From Hypericum androsaemum (lineage: Eukaryota > Streptophyta > Magnoliopsida > Malpighiales > Hypericaceae): DNA of 64,000 bases. The stretch spans positions 11,920,308-11,984,307 of the forward strand of contig OZ023184.1 of assembly GCA_963995505.1 (NCBI GenBank), read 5' to 3'. Of this stretch, positions 2,921 to 63,185 are shown in pieces. The notes under the pieces are model-generated. The model made no database searches. It saw only the letters and a list, made by a program, of their open reading frames with translations, and was not told the DNA's origin. Position 1 is the first letter of the stretch, and each line of letters opens with the position of its first letter. Both the position numbers and the translations under genes were made by a program.

Positions 2921-3734
2921 GCTAAAATTCTTCCTCCCAACCAGCCACCGGAGGCCAGGCATACACAACAGTCAATAATTAAGGTGACTGGCTTGGAAAC
3001 AAAACCTGACAGTGAAGAAACTGTGAATGGTGAACAAGAATCGTGACAGTAACTTCAGGTTTCTACAACAGCCATATACCTCCCCGACGACCTTGAGCCT
3101 CCATTCTATACGAACTCAAGCCAATCTTCTGACAAATTCAGGCAGCTTGTAGCCTGCTAACTTGCGTCTCAAGCAATGCCACCACATTAACACCATGCAA
3201 ACTGTTGAGGAATTTCAGTATTCAGAGGAAGCCTGCCTTCTGGGGACCAGAACAATTCCACATGAGGGCCTTATAAATCATTAAAAATTGATAAGAGCTA
3301 GGCAGTGGGGAAGGGACCGGGCTACTGCCCTACGGTCGGCCCCGCATTCTCAACCATTGGGGAATCATCATGAGTCAACGATGGGGTGATAACAGCCTCT
3401 TGGCCAATCGAATCCAAGTGGGAGGAGGACTGTATCAAAACTTTAGTATCAGGTGGACACTTAGATGTGCCTGACCATCTAGTCTCTGGGCGTGCATAGC
3501 TTTTTTTTGGGTTACATTAGGAGGCTCAGGAGCAACTGAGGAGGCTTGAGGGAGACATCTACTTTTACCCAAGTTCCTTGCCAAAGCATTGGGGTTCCGA
3601 TTCTCCTTATTGAGTTCATATCGTGCAATGGCATCTTACACCCGAGCACACAGGATACTATCCTCTCCACCTCGTGTTTGCTTATTCTTCGACGAGGAAC
3701 CAGAAGCATTCTAAAGGTGCGCGGTCTGTTTCTC

Positions 3735-14486: not shown

Positions 14487-14997
14487 ATGCCCCCCCACAT
14501 GTTAATACTTCGGTACGGTCAGGCGAGAAGTGTTGACATGTAGCTTTTTAACCTCTTTGACCATTTGATGAGCCCGTAATACCTCTACTCAAAGGTCTTT
14601 CATCTCCGGCTTGGCATCACCTTGTTTACTTGGGTGAAAATTATCTATTTTGAGAAGCACCAGGGGATCTAGGCCGTTGTCATGAAAAACATATCCGGCC
14701 AATTTGTAAGATGACAAGGTGTAGACCACCAACCACCTTGTCCCTTCTCATATGGCCTTACTCCTTAGTAGTATGGCAGAGTGCCTGCCCCTCGGGTGTA
14801 GCACTGACCGGTCGATGGATAGCAGGAACATCCCGCTCGATCAAGCTTACATAGTGGGCAAACCAGCCATCTACGCCGCTCCAGGTCACCATCGTTGGCA
14901 CTATGGAATCGTCGTAAAAGGCCGCCCCTACACAGTCAGTAACCGATATAAAGGAATTGATGTTTTGTATCACTATCTCTATCCTTCCATCCGGCTT

Positions 14998-15711
14998 CTA
15001 CCAAATCAAGAGCAAGTGGAGGGAGAATGGGGTCACTTGACTTGAGTCAATCCAATTCTTCCCTAATTGTGAGTTGTGGGAGATCTCTGCACTTGTGCCA
15101 AAGAACACAACCTCTCGAGTAGTAGAGCTCACCCTAACTTCAGCTGCAAGTACTCTAAGCAGACGAGTACCCTTACCGGTGAAGCTAGTTATTATCATCC
15201 TACAGGGAATCAACTTCTCCCTCTCCTTGTTTAACTTCCTCATGAGCGACTGTGGTAGGACGTTCACATCCGTCCCATTTTCCACGAGGCTCCTCTTTAC
15301 CAGCTTTTTAACTACGTGAGTCGTGATATACAAGGACTTGAGGTATTCACACGACCTCCAGGTAGGCTTAGCAATAGTGATACTATCATTGAAGTCTTTC
15401 ACCAGGGATCCCAATGAAGGCCTCTCTCCTACCTCAACCTCAATAGAGTCACCCTGCATCATGTCTCTCTCTTGGTGACTCGGCTGGTTAGGTTTTGACC
15501 CGTAGCTAGTGGGTGCCACGTCAATCATCATATTGTTTAAGAGGTTTCCCAACTTGACATATGCGGTGTCAGGGTCGACCGAGGCTTTCTTTGCCTTCCG
15601 GTCGGCCTGGCCAGCCTTGTCCTCCTGAGGGTGATCTTTCCTAGGGTGGATCTCGCCTCTTACCTTAGGTACCCACTTGCGAGTCAACTTCTCACGTCCA
15701 TCAGTGGGCAC
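14998..15711 (-). pseudogene. Element C protease-like ORF, second copy
   Basis: The 237-residue frame carries KRSLVENGTDVNVLPQS near residue 140 and LGKNWIDSSQVTPFSLH near the end. These correspond to the 'L-V-D-x-G-[ST]-x-V-N-[IV]-[LM]-P' active site and the 'LLGR-x-W-I' flap-end block of retropepsins in Tat-like elements. The catalytic Asp is replaced by Glu (VENGT). The same change is in the other copy (18838-18053), so it predates the tandem duplication. The copy ends upstream at the junction with the middle LTR near 15783. Confidence 0.7.
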
Positions 15712-15783
15712 CTGTGGTCTAACCTCTTTAATGTGCTTGAAGTCCTTTCCTTTATCTGCCTTAGAGGCTCTAACTTTCTTGTT

Positions 15784-17777
15784 CCTTGATATAGATTTTG
15801 TGATTTGGTTTGTGGATGTCCTTCTACCTTGCTTCAGGCCTTGCTTATATAGAGAAGAGTGACCCGGCCTCCCTCATTAGCTATGTTGTAGCCGAACTCA
15901 AAAGACCTTAGAGTTCATCCTTCAGCCAAGCCTTATCCTTATCTCGTCCTGACTCGTAGACCCGAAGCCCATCTCTTCCAATGCTTATCCTTGCCCAACA
16001 ATGCATCCCCATTTACCGTGGACTTCAGTGCTTATCCTTGCCTGGCTCGAACTTCCAACCTTTATCCTTGCCTGACTCGGACTCCCAATGCTTATCCTTA
16101 TCACTTGAGAGTCCTAAAGCTCCTTGACTTCTTTGATAGTCCATCTTCGGGAGTCTGTCCTAAGCATGTTCTCCAGGTTGGGCGACGATCGACCTTGAGG
16201 TGAGCTTGCCGACGATCGCCCTTGAGCCCACTTCAAACTGATTTTGGACCTTTATCCGCTCTGAATTAGAAGAAGTCACCAACTAGAAAGTTGTAGAACT
16301 ATCTCTTAGCTTTCCATCGCAACTTGAATAATCGCAATACGAGGTCAGAGTCTCAAGATAAGACAATTGTACCAATGGCCGACGATCGGCCTAGAGCTGG
16401 AGCTTGCCGACGATCGCCATATAGCCGACGATCGCCCTGGAGTCGACTTCAAACCAATTTTATGCCCTCTTCCGCTCTGAAATAGAAGAAATCATGAACT
16501 ACAAAGTTGTAGATCTACTTTTTAACTCTCCATAGCCGAAAGAATCACCTTAATCCAAGGTTTGAGTCAAAATCTATGAGTGATCAATGATCGATGATCA
16601 AAGCTAGGCGAGATGGCCGGCAATCGGCCCTTAGGCGGGATGGCCGGCGATCGACCCCTAGGCAGGAAGGCCGGCGATCGACCCCTAGGCGGGATGGATG
16701 ATAATCGACCCCTAGGCAAGATGGCCGGAGATCGACCCCTAGACGAGGTGGCCGCAATCGACTCCTAGGCGAGATGGTCGGCGATCGACCCCTAGACGAG
16801 ATGGCCAGCAATCAACCCCAAGGCAGGATGGCCGGTAATCGGCCCCTAGGAGAGATGGCCGGCAATCGGCCCCTAGGCAGGATGGCCGGCGATCGACCCC
16901 TAGATGAGATAGCCGGCGATCGGCCCCTAGGCGAGGATGGGTGATAATCGACCCCTAGACAAGATGGCCGGAGATCGACCCCTAGACGTGGTGGCCAGCA
17001 ATCGACTCCTAGGCGAGATGGTCGGCGATCGACCCCTAGACGAGATGGTCGGCAATCGGCCCCTAGGCGGGATGGCCAGTAATCGGCCCCTAGGCGGGAT
17101 GGCCGGTAATCGGCGCCTAGGCGGGATGGCCGACGATCAACCCCTAGGCACAATAGCCGGAGATCGACCCTAGATGAGATAGCCGGCGATCGGCCCCTAG
17201 GCGAGGTGGCCAGCAATCGACCCCTATGTGAGATGGCCGACAATCGGCCTATAACCAAACTTCTCCGATCATTGAGTCATCAAAGACGGCCGACGATTGG
17301 TTGTATGGAATATTGGCCGCTAATTAGTCCCAAAGGAACTGGACCGACAATTACCCCTCTAAAGCAATGACCCGAGCACAAGTTGAATCCCCGATTACCT
17401 CGAAGTCATTTTTCCTCACTTCAACAGGCCTCCTAACTAGCGTATGACCTGACCAAAGGGAGCTCCAACTCACTTGAGGCTGAGGCCTGAGGGTACTCAA
17501 ACCGACTTGAGGTTAGGGTACCAAGGTCACCTTAACCTGAGGATATCCAAGGTGATTCAAGACTGAGGGTATGAACGGTGAGGGTACCCAAGCTGATGTG
17601 AGGCTGGGGGTACACAAGTTGTCTTACTCTAAGGGTACCCAAGGTAATCCAAGGCTGAGGGAACCCAAGCCGACTTAAGCGTACCCAGCCAAGGTAAGTT
17701 GACGTCCAAGTCTAAGCACTTCAATGATCGCCCTAGTCGACCCCGAGCTCCCAATACGTTATTTTTGCACTTCAACA
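15784..17777 (-). repeat. Element C middle LTR, lacking its R-U5 end
   Basis: From 15784 the sequence matches the 3' LTR from about 12769 on, and it ends CTTCAACA at 17777 with a polypurine-type run beyond. The terminal 140 bp or so (R-U5 and TG end) is missing. Instead, internal sequence equivalent to that left of 19052 joins directly, at a short shared CTTG. The TATA box is retained at about 15845-15852. Confidence 0.8.
16610..17250. repeat. 27-bp minisatellite in element C middle LTR, expanded
   Basis: Same 27-bp unit as at 13580-13960 but with about 23-24 copies, including an internal re-duplication: the block after 16925 repeats the order of units seen from about 16690. Unit variants (GGCCGG versus GGCCAG, GATCGA versus AATCGG) occur in a recognisable order that is partly shared with the other two arrays. 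Confidence 0.85.
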
Positions 17778-18052
17778 ATGCCCCCACATGTTAATACTTT
17801 GGTACGGTCAGGCGAGAAGTGTTGACATGTAGCCTTTTAACCTCTTTGACCTTTGATGAGCTCGTAATACCTCTACTCAAAGGTCTTTCATCTCCGGCTT
17901 GGCGTCACCTTATTTACTTGGGTGAAAATTAGCTATTTTGAGAAGCACCAGGGGATCTAGGCCGTTGTCATGAAAAACATATCCGGCCAATTTGTAAGAT
18001 GACAAAGTGTAGACCACCAACCACCTTGTCCCTTCTCATATGGCCTTACTCC

Positions 18053-18838
18053 TTAGTTGTATGGTAGAGTGCCTGCCCCTCGGGTGTGGCACTGACCGGT
18101 CAACGGATAGCAGGAACATCCTGCTCGATCGAGCTTACATAGTGGGCAAACCCCATCTACGTCGCTCCAGGTCACCATCGTTGGCACTATGGAATCGTCG
18201 TAAAAGGCCGCCCCTACACAGTCAGTAACTGATATGAAGGAATTGACGTTTTGTATCACTATATCTATCCTTCCATCCGGCTTCAACCAAATTAAGAGCA
18301 AGTGGAGGGAGAATGGGGTCACTTGACTTGAGTCAATCCAATTCTTCCCTAATAGTGAGTTGTGGGAGATCTCTGCACTTGCGCCAAAGAACACAACCTC
18401 TCGAGTAGTAGAGCTCACCCTAACTTCAGCTGCAAGTACTCTAAGCGGACGAGTACCCTTACCGGTGAAGCTAGTTATTATCATCCTATAGGGAATCAAC
18501 TTCTCCCTCTCCTTGTTTAACTTCCTCATGAGCGACTGAGGTAGGATGTTCACATCCGTCCCATTTTCCACGAGGCTCCTCTTTTCTGGCTTTTTAACTA
18601 CGTGAGCCGTGATATACAAGGACTTGAGGTATTCACACGACCTCCAGGTAGGCTTAGCGATAGTGATACTATCATTGAAGTCTTTCACCAGGGATCCCAA
18701 TGAAGGCCTCTCTCCTACCTCAACCTCAATAGGGTCACCCTCCATCATGTCTCTCTCTTGGTGACTCGGCTGGTTGGGTTTTGACCCGTAGCTTGTGGGT
18801 GCCACGTCAATCATCATATTGTTTAAGAGGTTCCCCAA
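18053..18838 (-). CDS. Element C protease-like ORF, first copy
   Basis: The 261-residue open frame is nearly the same as the copy at 15711-14998 but without its N-terminal basic part. It has the retropepsin-like block RSLVENGTDVNILPQS and the block LLGKNWIDSSQVTPFSLH, followed by WLKPDGRIDIVIQNVNSF, which in related elements leads towards RT. No RT follows; the frame runs into the 3' non-coding part. The active-site Asp reads Glu, so proteolysis is doubtful. It is transposon-encoded, not a host gene. Confidence 0.6.
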   Translation of the reverse strand: MGNLLNNMMIDVAPTSYGSKPNQPSHQERDMMEGDPIEVEVGERPSLGSLVKDFNDSITIAKPTWRSCEYLKSLYITAHVVKKPEKRSLVENGTDVNILPQSLMRKLNKEREKLIPYRMIITSFTGKGTRPLRVLAAEVRVSSTTREVVFFGASAEISHNSLLGKNWIDSSQVTPFSLHLLLIWLKPDGRIDIVIQNVNSFISVTDCVGAAFYDDSIVPTMVTWSDVDGVCPLCKLDRAGCSCYPLTGQCHTRGAGTLPYN

Positions 18839-19374
18839 CTTGACATATGCGGTGTTAGGGTCGACCGAGGCTTTCTTTGCCTTTCGGTCGGCCTGGTCAG
18901 CCTTGTCCTCCTGAGGGTGATCTTTCCTAGGGTGACCCCTAGTGGGTTTTGGTGTAGCTTCTTCGTTGATCAGTGGGCACCTTTGGTCTAACCTCTTTAA
19001 TGTGCTTGAAGTCCTTTCCTTTATCTGCCTTAGAGGCTCTAACTTTCTTGTTTCGGCCTTGAGTTGGGTCCAACTGTTGTTTCACCTGTGGACAGGCTAG
19101 AAGGGTCTTTTGCTCCTCCAGCAGGGCCTTTTGTTCTGCCAATTTCCTTTCGAGGCTCTTAATAGCTTGCTTCCACTTTTGGACCTTCCTCTCAAGGTGA
19201 CGCCTCTAAATCTCAGTCATAACGCCTTGTGTTGGTGACTTAGGGATGGCCCTCTTGTCTCCAAGCCAGTTGAAGATGTTCCAGTGTGGGTTGGGCTTGT
19301 CCTGAAGGTCCACCTTGATTCGGGGATGATGGAACCTCCACATATCAGCAACTCCCCTTGGACAAAAGAACTTC

Positions 19375-19650
19375 GGAGTCCTTAGGATGCCTTTATCAGG
19401 CGGCTTTCCATGCTCCCTAAGTCTTGCCCCGCGGGTCTTAGGGTCGATCTCCCCTTGCTTAGGGACATCGGCTCTCCTTTGACAAGAGGACTTCTGATCC
19501 TTTAGAATACAGTTATCGGGTGGCCTTTCTTGCCCCCCGAGTCTTGCCCTCTGGGTCAAAGGGTCGATCTCCCCTTGCTTGGGGACACCGACTCCCCTCG
19601 GATGAGAAGACTTATGAGCCTTTAGGATGTCGTTATCGGGCGACCTTCCT
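19375..19650 (-). repeat. 120-bp in-frame tandem repeat in element C internal region
   Basis: The phrase GGGTCGATCTCCCCTTGCTT occurs at 19441 and again exactly 120 bp later at 19561. The neighbouring phrase around 'ggatgcctttatcaggcggc' occurs near 19385, 19505 and 19625. At 40 codons per unit the frame is kept. It lies between the gag-like ORF and the protease-like ORF. Confidence 0.8.
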
Positions 19651-19670
19651 TTCGATATACAAACTGGGGT

Positions 19671-20534
19671 CTAGGTATCAAGGTAAGACAAAGACCGTAC
19701 CCTCAATTGCTCTACCGTAGGCTCAGTGGAGGGTAATAGCCTTTTGTGTGCCATCCTATCAAGACGTGGCTTCTCAGTCTCCAGATCGTTCATCTCGCTT
19801 TGCATTATCGGGGTTATGGTTTGAGCCAAGTAACCGGTAAGATATTGAGTACTACCTTGAGATGTTTGCTGAGATGCCCCATCCATGTTGTTCGGATCCA
19901 CCTGAACTTGATCAATGACCGCCTGAAAGGCTTCCCTAGTGCACCCAAAATGCCTATCAGACTCCTCCTCATAGCACCTACATGACTCTTCAAAGCACCT
20001 CCGAGCAACGAAGGTGGAGTATGTCTCTATCGGGATGACAATTATCTCTACTGGCTCCTTGGAGGGAGCCACAGTAGATGAAGACTCCTCATAGCACCTA
20101 TAAGATACCTCATAACGCTGAAAGACCTCATCGCTACTTTTCTTTGCCTCCTCGAGGTGACGCCGAGTATCCTCGCTAGCTTTCTTATATTCGACCTCCA
20201 ACTGATCTAGTTTGGCAGCCATGGATTTGGTATTGGTCGCTATCTGGTCCATCATTCGCTCTAGCCGTGTGACCATGGCTTCGAGTGCCCCTGTCAAAAC
20301 GAGGCCTTGGTCAGCCAGCTCTTTGGGGGATGTCGTATTGATGGTGTTCCTCCCAGTAACCGTCTGAGTAGTAGGGAGGGTAGACTCTTTTAGGGGAGCC
20401 ATGTTGGTTGAGTTCCTCTCGGTACCAGGTAGGGTGATCGGGAGAGCCGGCTCATTGAGGGGTGTCATGTTGGTCGTATTCTTCCCAGCGAGTTGCTGAG
20501 AGGAGGGTGGTGCGTTGTCTCTGCCTTTGGTCAT
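19671..20534 (-). CDS. Element C gag-like ORF (coiled-coil)
   Basis: A 287-residue frame begins about 70 bp inside the primer site, the usual place for gag. The N-terminal third is Thr/Pro-rich with a three-times repeated 'NTTNMTPLNEPALP'-type phrase. The middle (about residues 80-140) is heptad-like and probably a coiled coil (LERMMDQIATNTKSMAAKLD, then EEAKKSSDEV). A Cys/Tyr/Glu-rich part follows with RCYEESS and RCFEESCRCYEEESD repeats. I see no retrotransposon gag core domain or CCHC knuckle, so the gag label rests on position. Confidence 0.45.
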   Translation of the reverse strand: MTKGRDNAPPSSQQLAGKNTTNMTPLNEPALPITLPGTERNSTNMAPLKESTLPTTQTVTGRNTINTTSPKELADQGLVLTGALEAMVTRLERMMDQIATNTKSMAAKLDQLEVEYKKASEDTRRHLEEAKKSSDEVFQRYEVSYRCYEESSSTVAPSKEPVEIIVIPIETYSTFVARRCFEESCRCYEEESDRHFGCTREAFQAVIDQVQVDPNNMDGASQQTSQGSTQYLTGYLAQTITPIMQSEMNDLETEKPRLDRMAHKRLLPSTEPTVEQLRVRSLSYLDT

Positions 20535-20582
20535 TTTGATTGGAGTAGGTCAAACTGCCTTCTCAGACGTCCTCCTATGTCC

Positions 20583-20596
20583 CACCGAGCGTGCCA
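20583..20596 (-). other. Element C primer-binding site
   Basis: On the minus strand, a few bases after the 5' LTR, TGGCACGCTCGGTGGGAC (complement of 20579-20596) starts with the TGG expected opposite a tRNA CCA end. I do not assign it to a particular tRNA. Confidence 0.55.
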
Positions 20597-20603
20597 AAAA
20601 CAA

Positions 20604-22479
20604 TATTGGGATAAAAAAGTGAGAACGCTAAGAACGATCTCGTGACGGCCCGGAGTGCTCGTCCCAAGGTCGGTCTAACGCTATGAGTAACAACGGTTGG
20701 CCGAAGCCGAGACTACTACTAACCTAAACTAAGATAAAAGCCGAAGCTTGATAGAGATTTTGTTTGTGGATGATCTTCTGCCTTGCTTCAGGCCTTGCTT
20801 ATATAGAGAAGAGTGACCCGGCCTCCTTCCTTAGCTATGTTGTAGCCGGACTCAAAAGACCTTAGAGTTCATCCTTCAGCCAAGCCTTATCCTTATCTCG
20901 TCCTGACTTATAAACCCGAAGTCCATCTCTTCCAATGCTAATCCTTGCCCAACAATGCATCCCCGCTTAACGCGAACTTCGGTGCTTATCCTTGCCTGGC
21001 TCGAACTTCCAACCTTTATCCTTGCCTGACTCGGGCTTCCAGTGCTTATCTTGAGAGTCCTAAAGCTCCTTGACTTCTTTGATAGTCCATCTTCGGGAGT
21101 CTGTCCTGAGCATGTTCTCCAGGTTGGCCGACGATCGACCTTGAGGTGAGCTTGCCGATGATCGCCCTTAAGCCCACTTCAAACTGATTTTGGACCTTTA
21201 TCCGCTTTTAATTAGAAGAAGTCACCAACTAGAAAGTTGTAGAACTATCTCTTAGCTTTCCATAGCAACTTGAATCATCGCAATACGAGGTTGGAATCTC
21301 AGGATAAGACAATTGTACCAATGGCCGACGATCGGCCTAGAACAGGAGCTTGCCGACGATCGCCCTGTAGCCGACGATCGCCCTGGAGTCGACTTCAAAC
21401 CAATTTTATGCCCTCTTCCGCTCTGAAATAGAAGAAATCATGAACTACAAAGTTGTAGATCTACTTCTTAACTCTCCATAGCCGAAAGAATCACCATAAT
21501 CCAAGGTTTGAGTCAAAATCTATGAGTGATCAATGATCGATGATCAAAGCTGGGCGAGATGGCCGACGATCGACCCCTAGGCGAGATGGCCGGCAATCGG
21601 CCCCTAGGCGGGATGGCCGGCGATCGGCCCCTAGGCGGGATGGCCGGCGATCGACCCCTAGGTGGGATGGATGATAATTGACCCCTAGGCAAGATGGCCG
21701 GAGATCGACCCCTAGACGAGGTGGCCGGCAATCGACTCCTAGGCGAGATGGTCGGTGATCGACCCCTAGACGAGATGGCCAGAAATTGGACCCTAGGCGG
21801 GATGGCCGGCGATCGACCCCTAGGCACAATGGCCGGAGATCGACCCCTAGACGAGATAGCCGGCGATTGGCCCCTAGGCGAGGTGGCCGGCAATCGACCC
21901 CTAGGCGAGATGGCCGGCAATCGACCCCTAGTTGAGATGGCCGGCAATCGGCCTATAACCAAACTTTTCCGATCATTGAGTCATCAAAGTCGGCCGATGA
22001 TTGGTTGTATGCAATATTGGCCGCTAATTGGTCCTAAAGGAACTGGACCGACGATTACCCCTCTAAAGCAATGACCCGAGCACAAGTTGAATCCCCGATT
22101 ACCTCGAAGTCATTTTTTCACTTCAACAGGCCTCCTAACAAGCGTATGACCTGACCAAAGGGAGCTCCAACTCACTTGAGGCTGAGGCCTGAGGGTACTC
22201 AAACCGACTTGAGGTCAGGCTACCAAGGTCACCTTAACCTGAGGATGTCCAAGGTGATTCAAGACTGAGGGTATGAACGGTGAGGGTACTCAAGCTGATA
22301 TGAGGCTGGGGGTACACAGGTTGTCTTACTCTAAGGGTACCCAATGTGATCCAAGGCTGAGGGAACCCAAGCCGACTTAAGCGTACCCAACCAAGGTAAG
22401 TTGACGTCCAAGTCTAAGCACTTCAATGATCGCCCTAGTCGACCACGAGCTCCCAATACGTTATTTTTGCACTTCAATA
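20604..22479 (-). repeat. Element C 5' LTR
   Basis: It matches the 3' LTR throughout and holds a TATA box near 20799 and a minisatellite array of about 15 units at about 21553-21955. Its ends read TATTGGG and CAATA where the other LTRs have TGTTGGG and CAACA. Both outer terminal dinucleotides thus carry a G-to-A or C-to-T transition. GGTTT at 22480-22484 is the right target-site repeat. Confidence 0.85.
21553..21955. repeat. 27-bp minisatellite in element C 5' LTR
   Basis: About 15 copies of the same 27-bp unit as in the other two LTR copies, with one more unit than the 3' LTR array. The order of unit variants largely follows the array at 13580-13960, so these two LTRs diverged mainly by single-unit gain or loss. 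Confidence 0.85.
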
Positions 22480-45328: not shown

Positions 45329-45333
45329 CATGC

Positions 45334-46983
45334 TGACGTACGCAAATTTGATAAACAATTTAACGTACAAATAGTATAGTGTATAAGTAAGGTTCTTGAA
45401 CTGAGAGAGATAGAACATGAAAATTGAAACAATCAATCGTATGTAGCCAAATTGAAACAAGTTCGTAAAGTAAAGAATGATATGAGGTTGTAAGACAATA
45501 AGTAAATTAAGAAATATAGAAAGACGGTTTGTACTTTAATGAAATAAAGAGAGCACGATGCTTTTATGGACTACCTATCTATGTCAAGATCATGGTTATT
45601 TACGAAGTTCTAACTAGTACCCGGAGTGTTCTAGTGCATCCTCCTAATGCTTTCGCTCATTAGGCCGATAAAACTAAGCTAGAATAGTTCACGAATACCA
45701 ACTAACGCTTTCGCTCATTAATTAGATCGTGAACTAAGATAAACTCAATTATAAAGTTAACTCCTCGTGGGTTATCCCTTAGTATCAAGATGTCTCATTA
45801 ATACCTAAGAATATGTCAATTGATCCTTTCGTTGAATTTAATGCCTTTCGGTCCACTATCATCAACTAACATCATAATCTAAGTGATCAAGTTAGATTAA
45901 GCATTACGATCATCAATTGATAACTACTACGAAAGATGATCAAACCATAACCCAACATAGATAAGTAATCACATAATTAAAGCATCGTACTCACAAGAAA
46001 AACTACTCACAAGTCATGTTCATACAAGAAGAAAACTTATACAAGAAAATGATAGAAAATAACATTAAAGAGAGAGATAGAGAAAACTCAAGATGTGGTC
46101 AAGAGCTTCCTCAAGCATCCTTCTTCAAGCTTCCTTCTAGCATTCCTCCAATGGTACTCCTTCTTGGTATTCCTCACAACTCTCAATCACCAACTATATT
46201 CTTCAAAAAACTAGATATCCCAAAGAGAGCAATTCCCTCCTCTATTTATAGTGAATGAGATGAGAGCTTTTTCTTCACTCATCCATCAAAAGAGAAGGTG
46301 GATGGATGAATATTCTCTCTTTTGAGTTGGAAAGCCTTTCTTTTGAGGTGGAAAGCTCTTTGGAGGTGGAAAGCTCCACTTTAGAGGTGGAAAGCTCTTC
46401 TTCCCAACAAGGAACACCAAGGAGAATTATTTATACAAGGCACTCAAGTTTCCAGCCATGTGAAAGAAAGAAAGGCACTCATGGTCCATAATGGTTCTTG
46501 AATTTTCGGCCAAATTCGTCCAGATTTGCTGGCAGAATTAAAGCTCTATTTTGGACGTGATTTTTATCCCTTTTGAGCTTTGAATTTGAAGAATCCCATT
46601 AGTGACAAATATTTCCAGGATGTCTTCTTTCCAGAGCCACCGAGTTTGCCTCCATCGGTCTTGGGATGAGAAAGTTATCTATATTTAAGTCGCAAGAGGT
46701 CAAACTCGCCCACATCTTCGAGTGTCCGATCAAGTGTCAATCTTTTAGGCCACTCCGATAGACTTCAACATGAACCAATGGTGTATCAACATCCTCCCTC
46801 TCATCTCACAAGGGCTTCTAGCGATAAACATGAAAGAAACACAATAAAAATTAAGAGGTTACACGAAAACAAACATAATACGAAATAAGAGATATTAACA
46901 TCGAATAACACGTAAACCTACTAGAAATGATAGGAATTCAATACTAAAACATACGCAAACAATGAATATTTTCACACTCATCA
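45334..46983 (-). repeat. Element B 3' LTR
   Basis: 1650 bp, TGACGTACGC to CACTCATCA, matching 54429-56080 closely. Next to it (from 46984) the minus strand reads a degenerate polypurine tract GTATGAGGGTG. The family differs from A in most of the LTR but shares the terminal motif and the 3' non-coding region. Open frames at 46016-46491 are LTR shadows. Confidence 0.9.
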
Positions 46984-47843
46984 CACCCTCATACTTGAAT
47001 CATTGCTTGTCCTCAAGCAAACTCAACCATGGGATACTAAACAACATCACAAGAGAAATCAAAACGCAATAAGGAAATGACTTGGCATGACTAATTCAAA
47101 ATTTAACTCCCCTCAAAATCTCAAACTCACATCAACAGATCACCCTACAACCTAGCTAGTTGATTAACCAAAACACAAAAAGTAAGAACCAGTAGACACC
47201 TCACCTCTAGATTATTTAACCAAGTATTAACACTATGTAAAATACACTAGAAGGTTGACTACTCAGAAGTTCGGAAATTTTTCGCTCACAATTTGTAAGT
47301 GGTTAACTTCCTATCTCTCACGTACATGGCCGATTTTTTTCAAAGTATCCGACGTCCTACTCAACAATGTCTCAAAGTCGTGAGATTGCTTGTGATCAGG
47401 GGGACTTTCATTCGGGTTGTAATGGGGCTGAGGTACAGGTGAGATAAAATATCTGGATAGTAGTTAAACCACCCAATCCGAGGACATTGTACAAATGCAA
47501 ACAAGTCACTCGTCTATTCTAAACATCCTCACCATAAACAATTCAAGCACACTCCCCAATTCACCCATTTCCTAAGACCGTGTAGATCGAGTCATGCCAT
47601 CTTATTCATGCCTTATTCCATTTTTTACTTCTCTTTTTCACCACTTTTCATTTCTTTTCTTCTTCTTCTTTTTTTTTCACAAACTTGACATTTACTAGGC
47701 AACAACTCGATCTTCTTTTTTTTTGCTAATAGCCTTTGGTCATTTGATCCGTGGACGCATAGGTTGGGGATAATATGTATTGGGATTAGTTGAAAACTTG
47801 GTGTTGATATGGGTTTAATCTGTTTGTGATTTGGATACATATT
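46984..47843 (-). other. Element B 3' non-coding region
   Basis: Collinear with 43242-44020 of element A up to about 47720. The remaining 120 bp or so up to the inversion junction match nothing else in the window that I can see. No coding frame is supported. Confidence 0.6.
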
Positions 47844-48571
47844 ATCTCTCTCTTTAATGTTATTTTCTATCATTTTCTTGTATAAGTTTTCTTCTTGTAT
47901 GAACATGACTTGTGAGTACGATGCTTTAATTATGTGATTACTTATCTATGTTGGGTTATGGTTTGATCATCTTTCGTAGTAGTTGTCAATTGATTATCGT
48001 AATGCTTAATCTAACTTGATCACTTAGATTATGATGTTAGTTGATGATAGTGGACCGAAAGGCATTAAATTCAACGAAAGGATCAATTGACATATTCTTA
48101 GGTATTAATGAGACATCTTGATACTAAGAGATAACCCACGAGGAATTAACTTTATAATTCAATTTAGCTTAGTTCACGATCTAATTAATGAGCGAAAGCG
48201 TTAGTTGGTATTCGTGAACTATTCTAGCTTAGTTTTATCGGCCTAATGAGCGAAAGCGTTAGGAGGATGTACTAGAACACTCCGGGTACTAGTTAGAACT
48301 TCATAAATAACCATGATCTTGACATAGATAGGTAGTCCATAAAAGCATCGTTCTCTCTTTATTTTATTAAAGTACAAACCGTCTTTCTATATTTCTTAAT
48401 TTACTTATTGTCTTGCAACCTCATATCATTCTTTACTTTACGAACTTGTTTCAATTTGGCTACATACGATTGATTGTTTCAATTTTCATGTTCTATCTCT
48501 CTCAATTCAAGAACCTTACTTATACACTATACTATTTGTACGTTAAATTGTTTATCAATTTGCGTACGTCA
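47844..48571 (+). repeat. Partial inverted LTR inside element B
   Basis: The reverse complement of the B LTR (compare 46013-46078 with 47844-47905). It covers only the 728 bp next to the primer site and ends at the LTR terminus CGTCA at 48571. With the LTR TATA box at 55336-55344 and a start about 30 bp on, it lacks all of U3 and about the first 150 bp of R-U5. It is followed by AAT and a primer-site-like sequence, then gag, so it is the 5' end of a plus-oriented partial copy. Confidence 0.85.
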
Positions 48572-48574
48572 AAT

Positions 48575-48592
48575 TGGCACCGCCGACGCAGA
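48575..48592 (+). other. Degenerate primer-binding site of the inverted block
   Basis: TGGCACCGCCGACGCAGA follows the LTR end after AAT, exactly where the tRNA-Asp site lies in A and B. It matches the 18-nt site of element A at only 12 positions, so it would prime poorly. Confidence 0.65.
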
Positions 48593-48687
48593 ACTGAGAT
48601 TTTAGGACATAAAACCAAAAGCAATTGGTTTTGTGTACAGCATATTTGCTGATTTTGTGCACTCGCTTTTGCGAGTCTCTTTAGTGC

Positions 48688-49980
48688 ATGCCAAGAACCC
48701 GGAGTGTAGGGCTTGGCCTTGACACAAACGCCTTACCTGAGATTGACATCAAAATACTCGAAAGGAGAATTAGGCGTGAAAGGAGAGACCAATCCAGATC
48801 CATGGTAAAAAATCAGGATGATAATGACGAGGCGACCCAAGCTCTTTATGACGCTACTTTGGAAGCAACCCAAGCCCTTGCAGGTGCGCCACGAAGAAGG
48901 ACCCTGCTGGAATCATCCATTCCTACATGGAATGGGAATCCTAATGGGTTACAACAACAACCGATAGGAGCCCACTCATTCCAGATCCCAGCAGCCATTG
49001 TGGGATTACTGCAAAATTCTGTCCAGTTTTACGGATTACCGAGTGAAGATCCTCAAGACCATCTTTCTCGACTCGAGGATATATGCAATATCATAAAGTT
49101 TCAAGGAATAGATGATGACATCTTGAAGCTACGTCTCTTTCACTTCTCTCCGAAGGATCGAGCTCGTGTATGGTACAACAAGTTGAAAGGAGAGACAATA
49201 AGGAGTTGGACAGACTTGGCCCATGCTTTCCTGCGAAAGTTCTTCTCCACGGCCAAGTCGGCCAAACTCTTGCAAGAAATCAACACCTTTGTCCAAAGAG
49301 ATGGGGAGAGCATCTATGAAGCTTGGGAGAGATTCACATATCTCCAAGGAGCTTTCCCTCAACATGGCATATCACAGGAGAACCTCATGAAGATCTTCTA
49401 CAATGGGTTAGATGGCCCATCTCGTGATCATATTGATGCCTCATCTCAAGGGGTGTTCTTAAGAAATACTGCTGACGAAGCAACTCGTTTGATGGAGGAG
49501 ATGGCAGAAGTCAATGGCATGTGGCCAAAGGAGCATGCCAGAAAACCACACAGAGGAGCAACCCAAGGGATACTGGAAGTGGATAGCAACACCAAGCTTG
49601 AAGCCAGGCTTGAGGCCCTTACCAAAAGATTTGAAGACCTGGCTAAAAGCAAGGAAAAGATAGCTATAGTGTAAGATGTTTGTGAACTTTGCAAAGAAAA
49701 GCATCCCACCAACGACTGTCCAGTATTGAAAGAAATTCAAGCAGTCGCTGATAGGCAACCAGGAGGGTTAGGTTACTCCAACCAAAGTCAACCAAATTTC
49801 TCTCGATTTGGAAGGCAGCCATACAACACTGGCACTCAGCAAGAGCCTAGAAAACAATATGTGGGAGATCAAGTCAAAACAATGGGAGATAAGATCGACC
49901 AGTTGGTGGGCGACCAAGTCAACATCTTTGCAAAGATCGACCAGCTAATTGGAGTAGTCCAGCAGTCTATTCAACAATAA
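48688..49980 (+). pseudogene. Element B gag (in the inverted block)
   Basis: The 328-residue frame (48688-49674) has the Athila gag pattern: QIPAAIVGLLQNSVQFYGLP, EDPQDHLSRLEDICNIIK, LRLFHFSPKDRARVWYNKL, SWTDLAHAFLRKFF and IYEAWERFTYLQGAFPQHG. A TAA at 49672-49674 ends it. The next codons read DVCELCKEKHPTNDC, a CX2CX3HX4C zinc knuckle just after the stop, so the protein is cut right before its knuckle. A second open part (49726-49980) ends in TAA. Gag would form the particle and bind RNA. The ATG is 96 bp after the primer site. Confidence 0.85.
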
Positions 49981-49989
49981 TCTATAACT

Positions 49990-51207
49990 GTGCAGCGGAT
50001 GGATCATTGTGAAGTTCGACAGCAAGAGATTGAGACATTCCTTAAAGGGCAGGCAACACAACTCAAAAAGATGAAAATTGAACTTGGAAACTTAGCTGTA
50101 GCAAATACTCGACGACCGATAGGTTCACTACCAAGCAACACAGAGGCTAACCCAAGAGGAGATGTCAAAGCTGTTACTCTGAGAAGTGGCAAGGAGATCG
50201 AAGGAGCCTCTACGACATCCAAAGAGAAGGAGAAAGTGAAGGAGAAAGAGAAGGAAGAAGAGCTAGTTCAGCCCATTGAAGAAGAGGAATTTTATGTTCC
50301 TCCACCACCAAGAATTCCACCTCCACCGTTTCCTCAACGACTCAAGAAGAAACCAATGGAAGATAAAAGATTCATTGGTTTTATTGAAAAGATGAAGAGT
50401 ATTCAGATAAGTGTCTCTTTCTTGGAGATGCTTGATCAAATGCCGCATTATGCCAAATTCCTCAAAGGACTCCTCACCAATAAGAATAAGTGGGACAAAG
50501 AAGAAACGATATCTCTAACCGTCAATTGCAGCTCACTCATCTCCAAGGATTTGCCGGCTAAGCTTAAGGATCCAGGGAGTTTTACTATCCCTTGTTTTAT
50601 TGGTGATGTTGAATTTTCTAAGTGCTTGTGTGATCTTGGTGCCAGCATTAACCTCATGCCGTTAACTATCTTCAGGCAACTAGGACTTGGAGACCTTAAG
50701 CCAACAGAGATGCGTCTTCAGCTAGCAGACCAGACTGTCAAGAGACCACATGGAATTGCGGAGGATGTGCTAGTCAAATTCGAGCAATTCTATGTTCCAG
50801 CAGATTATGTAGTCTTGGACTTTGACCCAGACAAGAATTATCCTCTTCTCATAGGAAGGCCATTCCTCAACACCAGCCGTGCCTTAATCGATGTCAATGG
50901 AGGGAAGCTAACTCTACGTATTGGGGAAGAAATAATAGAGTACTAAATGGCCAAAGCAATGCAGCACCACCGCGATGATGAAGATTGCTTGCGCATCGAC
51001 ACGATGCCCGATGAAATGCTTTATTCTGAAGAACAGTGGAGTTGGTCTTTGACAGAGGAAGAAGAGGCAGAAACCCTTGAACAAGTGCACAAAGTTGAAG
51101 AGGCCGAAAATGAAGAAGTAGACAAAGAGGAGGAAAAATTAGAGCTAGCATTTTACAACGGGGCTCCTACGCTACCATCCACTGTTAAAGCCCCCGCTGT
51201 GGAGCTC
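49990..51207 (+). pseudogene. Element B protease region (inverted-block copy)
   Basis: A 318-residue frame (49990-50946) includes AVTLRSGKEIEG, the proline-rich YVPPPPRIPPPPFPQRLKKK, the conserved FIGFIEKMKSIQISVSFLEM and the active-site block CDLGASINLMPLTIF, followed by PLLIGRPFLNTSRALIDV. A TAA (50944-50946) stands where the minus-strand copy (54336-53710) reads CAA, a C-to-T change. The next frame (50947-51207) is the acidic linker before RT and ends at KAPAVEL, where the sequence flips into the minus-strand integrase. Confidence 0.85.
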
Positions 51208-51939
51208 ACTGTCTTTTCTAGAATTTTCTTCAGCTCCCTATTAGATACTTCAACTTGACCACTGGTTTGAGGATGATAAGGTGTGGCAACCTTATGAGTG
51301 ACTCTATAGCACCGGAGAAGCGTGGCAAAAGGTTGGTTGCAGAAGTGTGAACTGCCATCACTGATGATTGCACGAGGAACACCGAATCGGGCGAAGAGCT
51401 GCTTGAGGAATCGTAAGACCACCTTGGCATCGTTTGTTGGAGTAGCCCACGCCTCTACCCATTTGGAGACGTAGTCGACTCCGACAATGATGTACTTGTT
51501 ACTTTTAGAGGGAGGGAAAGGACCCATGAAGTCGATCCCCCACACATCAAATAGCTCAACCTATAGAATACCAGACTGGGGCATTTCATCTCGTCGAGAA
51601 ATATTACCTGTTCGTTGACAATGATCACAATGCTCAGTGAATGCTCTTGCATCTTTGAAAATTGTAGGCCAACTCAAGAACTCATGAAGCTGTTCTTGAT
51701 GCTCCGAAGTGTCCAGCGTAAACTGATCCATGACACTCTTGGAGAATAGATGGTATTTCCTTGTCTGAAATACAATGTCGTAGAAGGCCATCCACACATC
51801 TCCTGAATAGATATGGCTCATCCCATACATAGAAATGCACATCACTAAGGAACTTCTTTCTCTGAGGGTAGCTCAAGTCTTCGGGCATGACTTCACTCAC
51901 CAAATAGTTGGCAAAATCCGCGTACCAAGGAGGCGCCAC
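51208..51939 (-). pseudogene. Element B integrase, 3'-truncated
   Basis: From 51939 down: a degraded zinc-binding part with [11 protein letters not shown], then (51545-51208) [10 protein letters not shown] with the first catalytic Asp, IISDGSSHF with the second, and the block [20 protein letters not shown] with the Glu. Stops and frameshifts separate the parts. The frame ends at ILEKT, where the inverted protease copy begins, so the C-terminal part of integrase is missing. This copy could not have served its own integration after the rearrangement. Confidence 0.85.
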
Positions 51940-51942
51940 TGC

Positions 51943-53697
51943 TTAGACATAGAACAAAGCTTCATCTAGGAAGTATTCGAGAATCCTTCCTTCCTTTTCC
52001 ATTCCATCGTTGTGCTCCAAGCGGGACAAGTGATCTGCGACCACATTCTCTGTGCCCTTCTTATCCTTAATCACTAGATCGAATTCCTGTAAAAGTAAAA
52101 TCCAACGGATAAGTCGGGGTTTTGCATCTTGTTTAGCAAAGAGGTACCTCAAGACTGCGTGGTCGGTGTAGATGATGACTTCAGAGCCTAACAAGTAAGG
52201 CCTGAATTTGTCGCAAGCATACGCCACCGCAAGTAGCTCTTTTTTCGTGGTGGTATAGTTAAGTTGTGCTCCAGCGAGAACACGACTTGCATAATAGATG
52301 ACATGCAGTCGCTCTTCCTTTCGTTGTCCGAGGACACAACCCAAGACATCATTGCTTGCATCACACATAAGCCCAAATGGGAGGTCCTAGGATGGTGAAG
52401 TGATAGTTGGAGGAGTGACCAATTCTTCTTGGAGTGTCCTGAAAGCACTTAGACAAGAATCATCAAACTTAAAGGTGACATCCTTAGTCAAGAGGTTAGC
52501 CAAGGGTTTTGCAATAGAAGAGAATTTCTTTATAAAGCATCGATAAAACCCTGCATGTCCTAAGAATGCGTGGATGCCCTTTACCATCGTCGGTGGTTGC
52601 ATTTTTTCGATCGCCTCGGTCTTGGCACGATCAACTTCAATTCCAGCCTTTGAGATCTTGTGACCCAATACTATGCCTTCTTCCACCATAAAATGACATT
52701 TCTCCCAATTAAGCACGAGCTTCTTCTCTTCGCATCTCTTGAGTACTCTATCCAAGTTGTGGAGGCAACATTCAAACGAATCTCCAAAGACAGAGAAATC
52801 ATCCATGAAAACCTCCATGATGTCTTCATTCATCCCTCAAAAGATTGCCATCATGCACCGTTGAAAAGTGGCGGGAGCATTGCACAGACCAAAAGACATT
52901 CTCCTGTATGCAAAAGTGCCAAAAGGACAAGTGAAAGTAGTCTTATCTTGGTCTCCAGGATAGATGAGTACCTGATTATACCCGCAATAACCATATAGGA
53001 AGCAGTAGTTGGCATGTCCAGCAATACGCTCCAACATTTGATCAATAAAGGGAAGAGGAAAGTGATCCTTCCGAGTAGCGGCATTGAGTTTTCTGTAGTC
53101 GATGCACACACGCCACCCAGTAACTACTCTTGTTGAGATGAGTTCCCCTTCCTCATTAGTTTGCACCGTCATACCTCCTTTCTTGGGCACACATTAGACA
53201 GGACTCACCTATTCGCTATCTGAAATAGGATAAATAATTCCAGCATCAAGAAGTTTGATTAACTCTTTTTTCACAACCTCTCTCATGTTTGGATTTAGTC
53301 TTCGTTGATGATCGGCCCTGGGCTTTGACCCTTCCTCCATGTTGATGCGGTGCATCACAATGTCAGAGCTAATTCTATGGATATCAGAAATTTGCCATCC
53401 CATGGCCTTGATTCTTTTGATCACCAGTGTAAGAACTTGCTCTTCTTGCTCCGGAGTAAGCTTGTTGGAGATAACTATTGGCAGCCTTCCTCCTTCTCTT
53501 AAGAAAGCATATCGTAAGTGAGGAGGTAACTCTTTCAGCTCCACAGCGGGGGCTTTAACAGTGGATGGTAGCGTAGGAGCCCCCTTGTAAAATGCTAGCT
53601 CTAATTTTTCCTCCTCTTTGTCTACTTCTTCATTTTCTTCGGCCTCTTCAACTTCGTGCACTTGTTCAAGGGTTTCTGCCTCTTCTTCCTCTGTCAA
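51943..53697 (-). pseudogene. Element B reverse transcriptase and RNase H
   Basis: Three frames (53697-53209, 53190-52837, 52833-52387) give the [43 protein letters not shown] in changed form (CFLYGYCGYNQ, catalytic Asp to Tyr) and [13 protein letters not shown] with the YxDD-type box. 52368-51943 is RNase H ([15 protein letters not shown] to [11 protein letters not shown]). At least three stops replace conserved tryptophans: after PISDSE, after RCMMAIF and after TSPS. Each is TGG to TAG or TGA. Confidence 0.88.
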
Positions 53698-53709
53698 AGA
53701 CCAGCTCCA

Positions 53710-54350
53710 CTATTCTTTAGAATAAAGCATTTCATCGGGCATCGTGTCGATGCGCAAGCAATCTTCATCATCGCGGTGGTGCTGCATTGCTTTGGCCATT
53801 TGGTACTCTATTGTTTCTTCTCCTAGGAATGGCCTTCCTAGGAGAAGAGGACAATTCTTGTCTGGGTCGAAGTCCAAGACTAAAAAATCTGCTGGAACAT
53901 AGAATTGCTCGAATTTGACTAGCACATCCTCCGCAATTCCATGTGGTCTCTTGACAGTCTGGACTGCTAGCTGAAGATGCATCTTTGTTGGCTTAAGGTC
54001 TCCAAGTCCTAGATGCCTGAAGATAGTTAACAGCATGAGGTTAATGCTGGCACCAAGATCACACAAGCACTTAGGAAATTCAACATCACCAATAAAACAA
54101 GGGATAGTAAAACTCCCTGGATCCTTAAGCTTAGCCGGCAAATCCTTGGAGATGAGTGAGCTGCAATTAACGGTTAGAGATATCGGTTCTTCTTTGTCCC
54201 ACTTCTTCTTATTGGTGAGGAGTCCTTTGAGAAATTTTGCATAATGCGGTATTTGATCAAGCATCTCCAAGAAAGAGACACTTATCTGAATACCCTTCAT
54301 CTTTTCAATAAAACCAATGAATCTTTTATCTTCCATTGGTTTCTTCTTGA
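53710..54350 (-). pseudogene. Element B protease region (native-orientation copy), fused to the tRNA
   Basis: The frame from 54336 carries MEDKRFIGFIEKMKGIQ, CDLGASINLMLLTIF and FVLD-type blocks of the Athila protease. Relative to the inverted-block copy it lacks about 22 codons between GRPFL and EETIEY. Its upstream sequence runs ACTCAAGAAGAAACC back to the 7-base match with the tRNA 5' end. Gag and everything between primer site and this point are absent. Point differences from the inverted-block copy show that the two come from different parental elements. Confidence 0.85.
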
Positions 54351-54425
54351 GTCGTTGTAGTATAGTGGTAAGTATTCCCGCCTGTCACACGGGTGACCCG
54401 AGTTCGATCCCCGGCAACGGCGCCA
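54351..54425 (+). tRNA. tRNA-Asp (GTC) copy including CCA, fused into element B
   Basis: A cloverleaf is readable. Acceptor strand GTCGTTG (54351-54357) pairs with CAACGGC (54415-54421, one T-G pair). The anticodon loop CTGTCAC (54382-54388) has anticodon GTC at 54384-54386. The T loop is TTCGATC (54403-54409), the discriminator G is 54422 and CCA is 54423-54425. Two mismatches, C54381-A54389 in the anticodon stem and A54401-C54411 in the T stem, look like G-to-A decay. Plant nuclear tRNA genes do not encode CCA, and no T-run terminator follows. I therefore read it as a reverse-transcribed primer tRNA, not a working gene. The 18 nt at 54408-54425 are the normal primer site. Confidence 0.88.
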
Positions 54426-54428
54426 ATT

Positions 54429-56080
54429 TGACGTACGCAAATTGATAAACAATTTAACGCACAAATAGTATAGTGTATAAGTAAGGTTCTTGAACTGAGA
54501 GAGATAGAACATGAAAATTGAAACAATCAATCGTATGTAGCCAAATTGAAACAAGTTCGTAAAGTAAAGAATGATATGAGGTTGCAATCCAATAAGTAAA
54601 TTAAGAAATATATAAAGACGGTTTGTACTTTAATAAAATAAAGAGAGCACGATGCTTTTATGGACTACCTATCTATGTCAAGATCATGGTTATTTATGAA
54701 GTTTTAACTAGTACCTGGAGTGTTCTAGTGCATCCTCCTAACGCTTTCGCTCATTAGGCTGATAAAACTAAGCTAGAATTGTTCACGAATACCAACTAAT
54801 GCTTTCGCTCATTAATTAGATCGTGAACTAAGCTAAACTCAATTATAAAGTTAACTCCTCGTGGGTTATCCTTTAGTATCAAGATGTCTCATTAATACCT
54901 AAGAATATGTCAATTGATACTTTCGTTGAATTTAATGCCTTTCGGTCCACTATCATCAACTAACATCATAATCTAAGTGATCAAGTTAGATTAAGCATTA
55001 CGATCATCAATTGACAACTACTACGAAAGATGATCAAACCATAACCCAACATAGAAAAGTAATCACATAATTAAAGCATCGTACTCACAAGAAAAACTAC
55101 TCACAAGTCATGTTCATACAAGAAGAAAACTTATACAAGAAAATGATAGAAAATAACATTAAAGAGAGAGATAGAGAAAACTCAAGATGTGGTCAAGAGC
55201 TTCCTCAAGCATCCTTCTTCAAGCTTCCTTCTAGCATTCCTCCAATGGTACTCCTTCTTGGTATTCCTCACAACTCTCAATCTCCAACTATATTCTTCAA
55301 AAAACTAGATATCCCAAAGAGAGCAATTCCCTCCACTATTTATAGTGAATGAGATGAGAGCTTTTTCTTCACTCATCCATCAAAAGAGATGGTGGATGGA
55401 TGAATATTCTCTCTTTTGAGTTGGAAAGCCTTTCTTTTGAGGTGGAACGTTCTTTGGAGGTGCAAAGCTCCACTTTGGAGGTGGAAAGCTCTTCTTTCCA
55501 ACAAGAAACACCAAGGAGAATTATTTATACAAGGCACTCAAGTTTCCAGCCATGTGAAAGAAAGAAAGGCACTCATGGTCCATAATGGTTCTTGAATTTT
55601 CGGCCAAATTCGTCCAGATTTGCTGGCAGAATTAAAGCTCGACTTTGGACTTGATTTTTATCTCTTTTGGGCTTTGAATTTGAAGAAGCCCATTAGAGAC
55701 AAATATGTAGCCCAGGATGTCTTCTTTTCAGATCCACCAAGTTTTCCTCCATCGGTCTTCTGATGAGAAAGTTATCTACATTTAAGTCGTAAGAGGTCAA
55801 ACTCGCCCACATCTCTGAGTTTCCGATCAAGTGTCAATCTTTTAGGCCACTCCGATAGACTTCAACATGAACCAATGGTGCATCAATATCCTCCCTCTCA
55901 TCTCACAAGGGCTTCTAGCGATAAACATGAAAGAAACACAATAAAAATTAAGAGGTTACACGAAAACAAACATAATAGGAAATAAGAGATATTAACATCG
56001 AATAACACGTAAACCTACTAGAAATGATAGGAATTCAATACTAAAACATACGCAAACAATGAATATTTTCACACTCATCA
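54429..56080 (-). repeat. Element B 5' LTR
   Basis: 1652 bp, TGACGTACGC to CACTCATCA, nearly the same as 45334-46983 with scattered substitutions. The minus-strand TATA box lies at 55336-55344. CATGC follows at 56081-56085. Confidence 0.9.
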
Positions 56081-56085
56081 CATGC

Positions 56086-61530: not shown

Positions 61531-63048
61531 TCATCGAGAATTTGTTTCTGTGGAGCTTGGCAGGGAGCCGGAAGCTCTATGGGAACTCGCCTTTGCAATT
61601 TCTCCAAGTTGAGTCTCCATATTATGCATCGCGGTAGCTTGTCCCTTGAGAATTTGCTCCAAGTTGTTATGCCGTGCACCTTGTTGTTGTAAGGCTGCCA
61701 AAATTTGGCTTTGTTGGCTAACCACACCTCCAACTTCGTGCATAAACTTATCCATCTTCTCAAACTTCTCCTCCATAGCACCCATTCTATCTATCAAGAA
61801 CGCACGTGGTTGGAAACCCGGAGGGGTTCCTTGAGGTTGATACTGAAGAGGAGGTCCTTTATCAGGGACCATCGCCATATTTTTGCCACTATTTCCTCCC
61901 TTCCAAGAGAAGTTTGGGTGATTTCTCCACCCCGGATTGTAGGTGGAGGACTAGGGGTTATTTCCCATCCTATTTGCCCCTTGACCTTGGCTTTGGCCTT
62001 GGCCACCAACAAAGTGTGCTTGCTCTACTTCCATGTTCATCATAGCACATTCTTGCATCTCGTGGCCAACATTTCCACACGCTTCACAAGTCGTCCTTAC
62101 GGCTGCCGCATTGGTTTTGTTCAAGCTAAGATCGTTCACTTTTCTTGCCAACAATGCCAATTGGGCTTGAATAGAGGAGGCAACATCAACATCAATCACT
62201 CCCTTTTGCTGGCTAATAGGTTGTCTTCCTCTCTCATTTGCCATAAGGATGTTTGTAGCTGCTAATTCTTCCACGATGTGGTAGGCAGCATCTCTCTCTC
62301 TTCTCAAAAAGGATCCATTAGAGGCAGCATCAACCGTCTCCCTTGCAGAGGGTCCAAGACCAAAGTAAAAAGTTTGGAGTAAAGACTCCTCTGATATATT
62401 GTGGTGTGGACAACTCCTTTGTAATCCCTTGAATCTCTCCCAAGCTTCACTCAACGACTCATTCTCGAATTGTTAGAAGTTGTTAATGTCCTTCACGAGT
62501 CTATTTGCCTTGGAGAAGGGAAAATACTTGTCAAGGAAGGCATTAGCTAGCTCTTCCCATGTAGTAATTGTTGTCCCAACCAGATCCTTATACCATATCT
62601 TTGCTTTGTCCTTCAAGGTAAATGGGAACAATCTCAGCTTCACAGCATCGTCAGTAGCTCTATTGTGCTTGAAGGTGTCGGCTATCTCCAGAAAATTAGC
62701 AATATGGTCGTTGGGATCTTCATTCGGTAATCCATAGAATTGGACCGAAGCTTGGAGCATGTGAATAACCGCTGGCTTGATCTCGAAGGTGTTAGCTTGA
62801 ATAGCAGGCCTAGGAACTCCAGACACTGCCCCTCTCAATGTAGGCCAAGCATAGTCTATGAGAGACCTTCGAGGAACTCCAACTCCTTGCGCATCGCCTT
62901 GCGGAGCTCCTTGTGGAGCTTTTTGTACATGAGGTTGTTGATTCGTCCTTGCTTGTGTCCTTCTCTCTTGTCGCAATACCATTTCCAAGTATCCAATGTC
63001 AACGTCTACTCCGATCGAAATATTGTTCGTTGAGCGAGTTGAGCGCAT
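61531..63048 (-). pseudogene. Element A gag
   Basis: Frames 63048-62473, 62454-61951 and 61878-61531 make one Athila-type gag interrupted by stops. The first carries AVIHMLQASVQFYGLPNEDP, LRLFPFTLKDKAKIWYKDL and WEELANAFLDKYFP. The second carries LSEAWERFKGLQRSCPHHNI, a CX2CX4HX4C zinc knuckle (CEACGNVGHEMQEC) and a Gly/Gln-rich stretch. The third is a coiled-coil-like tail ending SGSLPSSTETNSR. The first stop (TAA) fits a CAA codon changed by C to T. ATG at 63048 is about 120 bp from the primer site. Confidence 0.85.
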
Positions 63049-63167: not shown

Positions 63168-63185
63168 TCCCCGGCAACGGCGCCA
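63168..63185 (-). other. Element A primer-binding site, tRNA-Asp, normal 18 nt
   Basis: On the minus strand, after the LTR end and two to three bases, comes TGGCGCCGTTGCCGGGGA, the complement of the last 18 nt of tRNA-Asp including CCA. The match to tRNA stops there (next bases TT against the expected TC). This is the normal extent and the control for the 75-nt tRNA copy in element B. Confidence 0.9.

Follow-up and report, generated by a model that had tools for sequence, protein, structure and literature searches.

A full-length tRNA-Asp copy with CCA in the primer-binding register of a long terminal repeat retrotransposon of Hypericum androsaemum, and related copies elsewhere in the genome

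Copying of the primer tRNA by plus-strand strong-stop synthesis usually halts at A58, which is methylated in human immunodeficiency virus type 1 (HIV-1; PMC13191261), and this stop is taken as what prevents most of the primer tRNA from entering progeny DNA. In HIV-1, in vitro transcribed tRNA is copied fully, and plus-strand synthesis goes past A58 when the A58 methylase is mutated (PMC13191261). Larger pieces of tRNA have also been met in retroviral DNA itself. A circle of Moloney murine leukemia virus described by Colicelli and Goff in 1986 kept a mature, reverse-transcribed tRNA that was taken as a copied primer; the circle was unintegrated, and the tRNA, the spurious primer tRNA-Gly with four 5' bases missing, lay between two long terminal repeats (LTRs) (via PMC12220202). 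Beside an HIV-1 provirus in a cultured cell clone, Gurgo and Franchini (2025) found a tRNA-Gly with CCA adjoining an LTR, outside the provirus at the host junction, and linked it to a deletion (PMC12220202). Hairpin-induced, tRNA-mediated recombination in HIV-1 captured 63 nucleotides (nt) of tRNA-Asp, which replaced an artificial hairpin in nef, away from the primer-binding site (PBS) (Konstantinova 2006, via PMC12220202). Here a tRNA-Asp copy is described that lies inside a plant LTR retrotransposon, called element B, in a window of 64,000 nt from Hypericum androsaemum (assembly GCA_963995505.1, contig OZ023184.1, positions 11,920,308 to 11,984,307 of the forward strand; all positions below count from the first letter of the window unless a locus is named). 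It is one of ten copies in this genome that passed the A58 stop.

ARAGORN finds a tRNA-Asp(GTC) including its CCA at 54351-54425 on the plus strand, antisense within the minus-strand element B, and the Rfam covariance model RF00005 scores the same stretch at 49.2 bits (gathering score 29). The CCA ends at 54425 and is followed by three spacer bases (ATT) and then by the LTR, which starts with TG at 54429, so that the tRNA occupies the PBS register beside the 5' LTR. The ordinary 18-nt PBS part, in canonical form, is 54408-54425 (minus strand); directly beyond it lies A58 (54407), and the copy continues past this residue to tRNA nt 1. The related element A has in the corresponding place only an ordinary PBS (63168-63185, minus strand) and no longer tRNA copy. 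An earlier note on this DNA had described the whole tRNA with CCA from 54351, A58 at 54407, the 18-nt PBS of element A and a CATGC repeat on both flanks of element B, and each of these descriptions holds. The copy differs from the canonical gene at two positions, both G to A, where about 1.1 changes in 75 bases would be expected for the age of the LTRs (probability of at least two, 0.31). As folded DNA it was not stabler than shuffled sequences (z 0.31; 120 of 200 shuffles were at least as stable).

Element B has LTRs at 54429-56080 (5') and 45334-46983 (3'), both on the minus strand, with TG...CA ends and with a 5-bp target-site duplication (TSD), CATGC, at 45329-45333 on the left and 56081-56085 on the right. 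The two LTRs are 97.0% identical (49 differences in 1649 aligned bases), and the Kimura two-parameter distance of 0.030 would place the insertion about 1.2 million years ago at a rate of 1.3e-8 or about 2.2 million at 7e-9, rates that may not be the species' own. Immediately past the tRNA lies the region of the Gag C-terminus and protease (53537-54350, minus strand), identified by alignment and by the homologues of a second copy of this region in an inverted block of element B (see below). The continuation of the element (51214-53536, minus strand) matches the protease-reverse transcriptase-integrase part of element A at 69% identity (2375 aligned columns), and element B appears to be nested inside element A. 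In element A the Pfam search recognized reverse transcriptase, RNase H and integrase, the protease falling below the cut-off, whereas the two element B frames searched (53212-53709 and 53713-54384) gave no Pfam match. Based on this homology, element B would be an integrated, defective copy of a Ty3/gypsy LTR retrotransposon. It may be Athila-like, a label that the homologues do not carry; among the 120 listed of 6469 Gag-protease homologues, all those with an organism name are from plants.

Past tRNA nt 1, element B runs directly into the Gag C-terminus and protease, and the junction carries a short overlap. The tRNA and the gag copy of the inverted block match over exactly GTCGTTG (54351-54357, plus strand; tRNA nt 1-7) and then diverge; the intact equivalent is CAACGAC at 50335-50341 (plus strand), read as CAA CGA C within the gag motif FPQRLKK, the majority form in an alignment of 39 sequences. 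Thirty-seven sibling loci were fetched, and of the 23 that contain the junction region 21 keep CAACGAC, the other two having CAATGAC. Measured against the inverted block, element B lacks about 1.75 kb in the direct sense, comprising the leader and the greater part of gag. When three B-family internal pieces (5,797 positions) were searched apart, no match to the end of the tRNA copy was longer than 7 bases, and CAACGAC ends at two places in this sequence, one of which is the junction. For alternative end points in the tRNA the best match is 4 to 9 bases long, so the existence of some 7-base match is unremarkable; what counts is that the junction itself sits on one, which a randomly placed junction would do about twice in 5,797. 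These results confirm what the earlier note had read at this point: the 7-base overlap with 50335-50341, a deletion put there at about 1.7 kb, and a breakpoint hard to attribute to chance.

Read-through of the primer followed by a misplaced second-strand transfer is the explanation that we favor, at a probability of roughly 0.8. Plus-strand strong-stop DNA would have run past A58 of the tRNA-Asp primer and copied it to nt 1, and the resulting 57-nt extension would have prevented normal re-pairing at the PBS. The terminal CAACGAC could then have paired with the minus strand at the FPQRLKK stretch of gag, with synthesis resuming there; the leader and most of gag would thereby have been lost in the direct sense, and the product would have integrated with its 5-bp TSD. 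We infer the read-through of A58, the pairing step and the order of these steps. The same read-through and wrong-site transfer had been proposed before for this locus, and the PBS register, the CCA, the tRNA 5' end, the overlap, the deletion and the TSD all support it.

Since ARAGORN and Rfam accept the sequence as a tRNA gene, one might suppose that a nuclear tRNA-Asp gene resided at the site or was brought there by recombination. To define genes, 35 bases of the tRNA 5' half were searched as a pattern across the 385-Mb genome with up to 3 mismatches, yielding 28 places against none in the reversed control; flanks were read for 26 of these places, and for element B and C13 (a copy described below). 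Eighteen places are gene-like, that is, without CCA, with a run of at least 4 T starting within 8 nt and with CAA within 12 nt upstream. Four carry the full-length tRNA with CCA and an LTR, three are joined to an LTR but have no CCA, L050 is ambiguous, and L055 and L056 are fragments. At element B the 60 nt downstream of the tRNA contain no stretch of four T, and CAA is missing immediately upstream, so that this tRNA differs from the 18 gene-like places and lacks the marks of a nuclear gene, in which CCA is not encoded and a T-run follows closely. The encoded CCA and the LTR in PBS register argue strongly against gene origin as well, and on these three grounds (CCA, LTR register, no T-run) we reject that origin as scarcely credible; a genuine tRNA-Asp gene at the site, which the earlier note had named as a finding that would overturn its reading, is thus absent. 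Two of the retro-copies score 60.3 bits, the same as a real tRNA-Asp gene (the element B copy scores 49.2), and could be counted as genes in annotation.

The exact tRNA-gag junction of element B was found once among the 28 pattern places, and it is repeated neither in the 26 read flanks nor in C13; because the pattern allowed 3 mismatches, more decayed copies would escape. A second pattern, from tRNA nt 41 to the CCA, matched 26 places genome-wide, eight of them with CCA. Both searches combined give ten LTR-linked tRNA-Asp copies that extend past nt 58. Five reach nt 1: the full-length copies of element B (C5), C8, C11 and C18, the last an old copy (91%) in which nt 1 is changed, and C6, whose tRNA starts at nt 1 and has lost its 3' portion. 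Three end within the tRNA, at nt 8 (C14), nt 11 (C4) and nt 18 (C20). The remaining two, C13 and C19, are fold-backs, in which the LTR end and PBS continue into a tRNA of opposite sense.

What lies beyond the tRNA differs from copy to copy. In the direct sense it is gag in element B, leader and gag in C11 and the 3' region in C4; in the opposite sense it is gag in C20 and an LTR in C14, where past nt 8 the same LTR type follows inverted (L079, about 134-164; 93.5% over 31 bases). In C11 the tRNA passes straight into the leader at ACGGAACTG, with CGAC common to the prevalent B-family PBS, and its retention of leader and gag indicates that a full tRNA can persist without loss of gag. A match of C8 (CAACGACCAT) to the gag of element A was dropped as a template when the flanks failed to align. 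That the copies stop at different points and have different partners speaks for separate events. Element B and C4 alone would be plain deletions by way of a misplaced transfer, and several of the others would need an inverting switch.

This range of junctions also bears on two further explanations of the element B joint. In the first, the whole tRNA was copied, second-strand transfer did not take place, and microhomology joined the copy to a truncated gag end before integration. The 7-base overlap fits such joining equally well, and the junction overlaps of C11, C20 and C4 were judged by eye to be short, about 1-4 bases. End joining nevertheless needs two linear ends and an extra step, and element B has normal LTR ends and a normal TSD, which makes it an unlikely account. 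In the second, the tRNA, still attached to minus-strand DNA, had its 5' end ligated to a minus strand halted in gag; this would give a joint at tRNA nt 1, as seen in element B, C8 and C11. Ligation does not predict the 7-base overlap, and the copies that end within the tRNA (nt 8, 11 and 18) speak against it, so that we consider it very improbable.

Several observations also weigh against the combination of read-through and misplaced transfer. Seven bases are short for productive transfer, and full template support for the pairing model is found only in element B; the sequence past the tRNA in C8 and C18, as in C6, was not matched to any template. The overlap of C11 is just CGAC, and this assumes a sibling-type PBS that is not seen in its own subfamily. 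The inverted gag of C20, the inverted LTR of C14 and the fold-backs C13 and C19 require a different switch. The methylation of A58 is assumed from HIV-1 work, not from this plant, and for Ty1 and Ty3 it is reported that a change in the primer tRNA does not show up in the PBS of newly made copies (PMC5371799). All of the evidence is assembled sequence rather than reads, a point that also favors an assembly error fusing an LTR end, a tRNA gene and gag. Such an error would have to invent the CCA, which the genes lack, and another argument against it is the existence of nine more LTR-linked tRNA-Asp copies whose junctions are different; it is highly improbable.

A primer mismatch might have contributed to the failures in the B family. 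Thirty-nine PBS contexts, from 35 fetched loci and the inverted block, were read after 6 further matches that are not PBSs had been dropped; the loci were picked for similarity to element B and so are not a random sample. Of these contexts, 29 read TGGCGCCGTCGACACGGA and 3 the canonical tRNA-Asp complement, the forms otherwise being canonical and mixed. The canonical tRNA in element B, C11 and C13 differs from the common form at 4 of 18 positions, and weak re-pairing at second-strand transfer is therefore a plausible trigger in this family, or a possible contributor. The PBSs of the A type and of a third LTR type match tRNA-Asp, so that a mismatch cannot be the general cause, a further point against the favored explanation. 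We know of no cognate tRNA for TGGCGCCGTCGACACGGA. A variant tRNA-Asp with the acceptor sequence GTCGTCG was considered as its cognate primer and dropped, its 3' strand still being CAACGGC.

The copies occur in at least three LTR types. The LTRs of C8, C20 and C4 are of the A type, an assignment based for C20 and C4 on about 65 bases, and C14, C19 and C6 share the third type (to C14, C6 is 98% identical over 53 bases and C19 89% over 120 bases including the tRNA); the remaining copies have B-like LTRs (73-95%). Genome-wide, 310 PBS-LTR junctions of the A type and 113 of the third type were counted by pattern and not each inspected, totals that include C8 and C14. Set against the copies found, these numbers suggest, very roughly, that about one copy in a hundred carries a full-copy failure. 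Full copying is perhaps not confined to tRNA-Asp. Three of nine places for the initiator tRNA-Met have CCA; two of them are one duplicated event (identical over 223 bases) that extends to about nt 10, and the third reaches only about nt 35. That an LTR follows these copies is a guess from its first bases. In viral contigs there was no match to the tRNA end pattern, and 46 pattern stretches there included no confirmed relative.

Some of these loci show further rearrangements. The C13 locus (L009, 2837-7900) contains a 1450-bp inverted repeat (99.8%), with tRNA nt 3-60 as a fold-back beside the LTR. The C19 locus (L053, 1-161) is a palindrome of LTR, tRNA-Asp and inverted LTR, as would be expected if the end of the copied tRNA folded back onto its own PBS by way of the acceptor stem. 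In L047 (C10), at about 3561-3580, a 13-nt PBS is joined directly to gag near the tRNA junction point of C13. Another sequence, L078 (C14), carries tRNA-Asp nt 6-75 with CCA, 45 nt from what by eye is an initiator-tRNA-Met type PBS; it was excluded from the ten copies for this reason, and no Asp PBS-LTR junction adjoins it.

The inverted block of element B (47843-51206, plus strand) comprises part of an LTR, a divergent PBS, leader, gag (Pfam PF03732) and protease, and thus carries the leader and gag that element B lacks in the direct sense. Over about 729 columns the private substitutions are 8 in the LTR part of the block, 12 in the 5' LTR and 6 in the 3' LTR, nearly a star, and the protease arms of block and element show 27 differences in 811 bases (3.3%), where the LTRs differ by 3.0%. 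The block is accordingly about as old as the insertion, and one faulty round of reverse transcription probably produced both. C13 likewise joins tRNA sequence with inverted 5' pieces. The block also retains 54 bp of protease-region sequence missing from element B at about 53824. Rfam matches to snoR71 at 49264-49370 (minus strand) and 62396-62502 (plus strand) lie antisense to gag regions of two elements and are probably retroelement sequence rather than a snoRNA. Elsewhere in the window, 12630-22477 has big direct duplications, short-period internal repeats and minus-strand open frames.

With ten copies in hand, the failure rate, the stop points and the rules of transfer in nature become measurable from sequence alone. 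The C8 copy is identical to the gene and has a T-run 17 nt beyond nt 72, so copies of this kind may still be transcribed. A broader proposal, which we regard as rather doubtful, is that in plant LTR retrotransposons leaky strong-stop synthesis at A58 acts as a constant source of mutation, one that would repeatedly make tRNA-CCA-LTR fusions whose internal RNA polymerase III promoter reads into the LTR. Ohshima and Okada reportedly proposed an intermediate of tRNA and strong-stop DNA as the seed of tRNA-derived short interspersed elements; if the proposal is true, the fusions would be a natural counterpart of that intermediate.

Among Ty3/gypsy plant elements of the Athila/Tat group (OTA), the tRNA-Asp PBS type occurs in 6% of surveyed elements; the available part of that survey describes PBSs complementary to tRNA ends and does not mention whole tRNAs (PMC6317226). 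Topic searches confined to open-access papers listed no account of plant LTR retrotransposons with an integrated, full-length primer tRNA. The HIV-1 strong-stop products that pass A58 represent the same step, with more than 18 nt of primer copied, but they arise with unmodified tRNA in vitro or in methylase-mutant cells, with lower infectivity (PMC13191261), whereas the copies described here are integrated and genomic. Unlike the murine leukemia virus circle, element B is integrated, and its tRNA is of the PBS type, complete to nt 1 and joined to gag. Unlike the tRNA-Gly at the HIV-1 host junction, the tRNA lies inside the element and in PBS register, with the TSD outside both LTRs. Capture of tRNA is thus known from retroviruses, and what would be new is its recurrent, integrated and full-length form in plant LTR retrotransposons.
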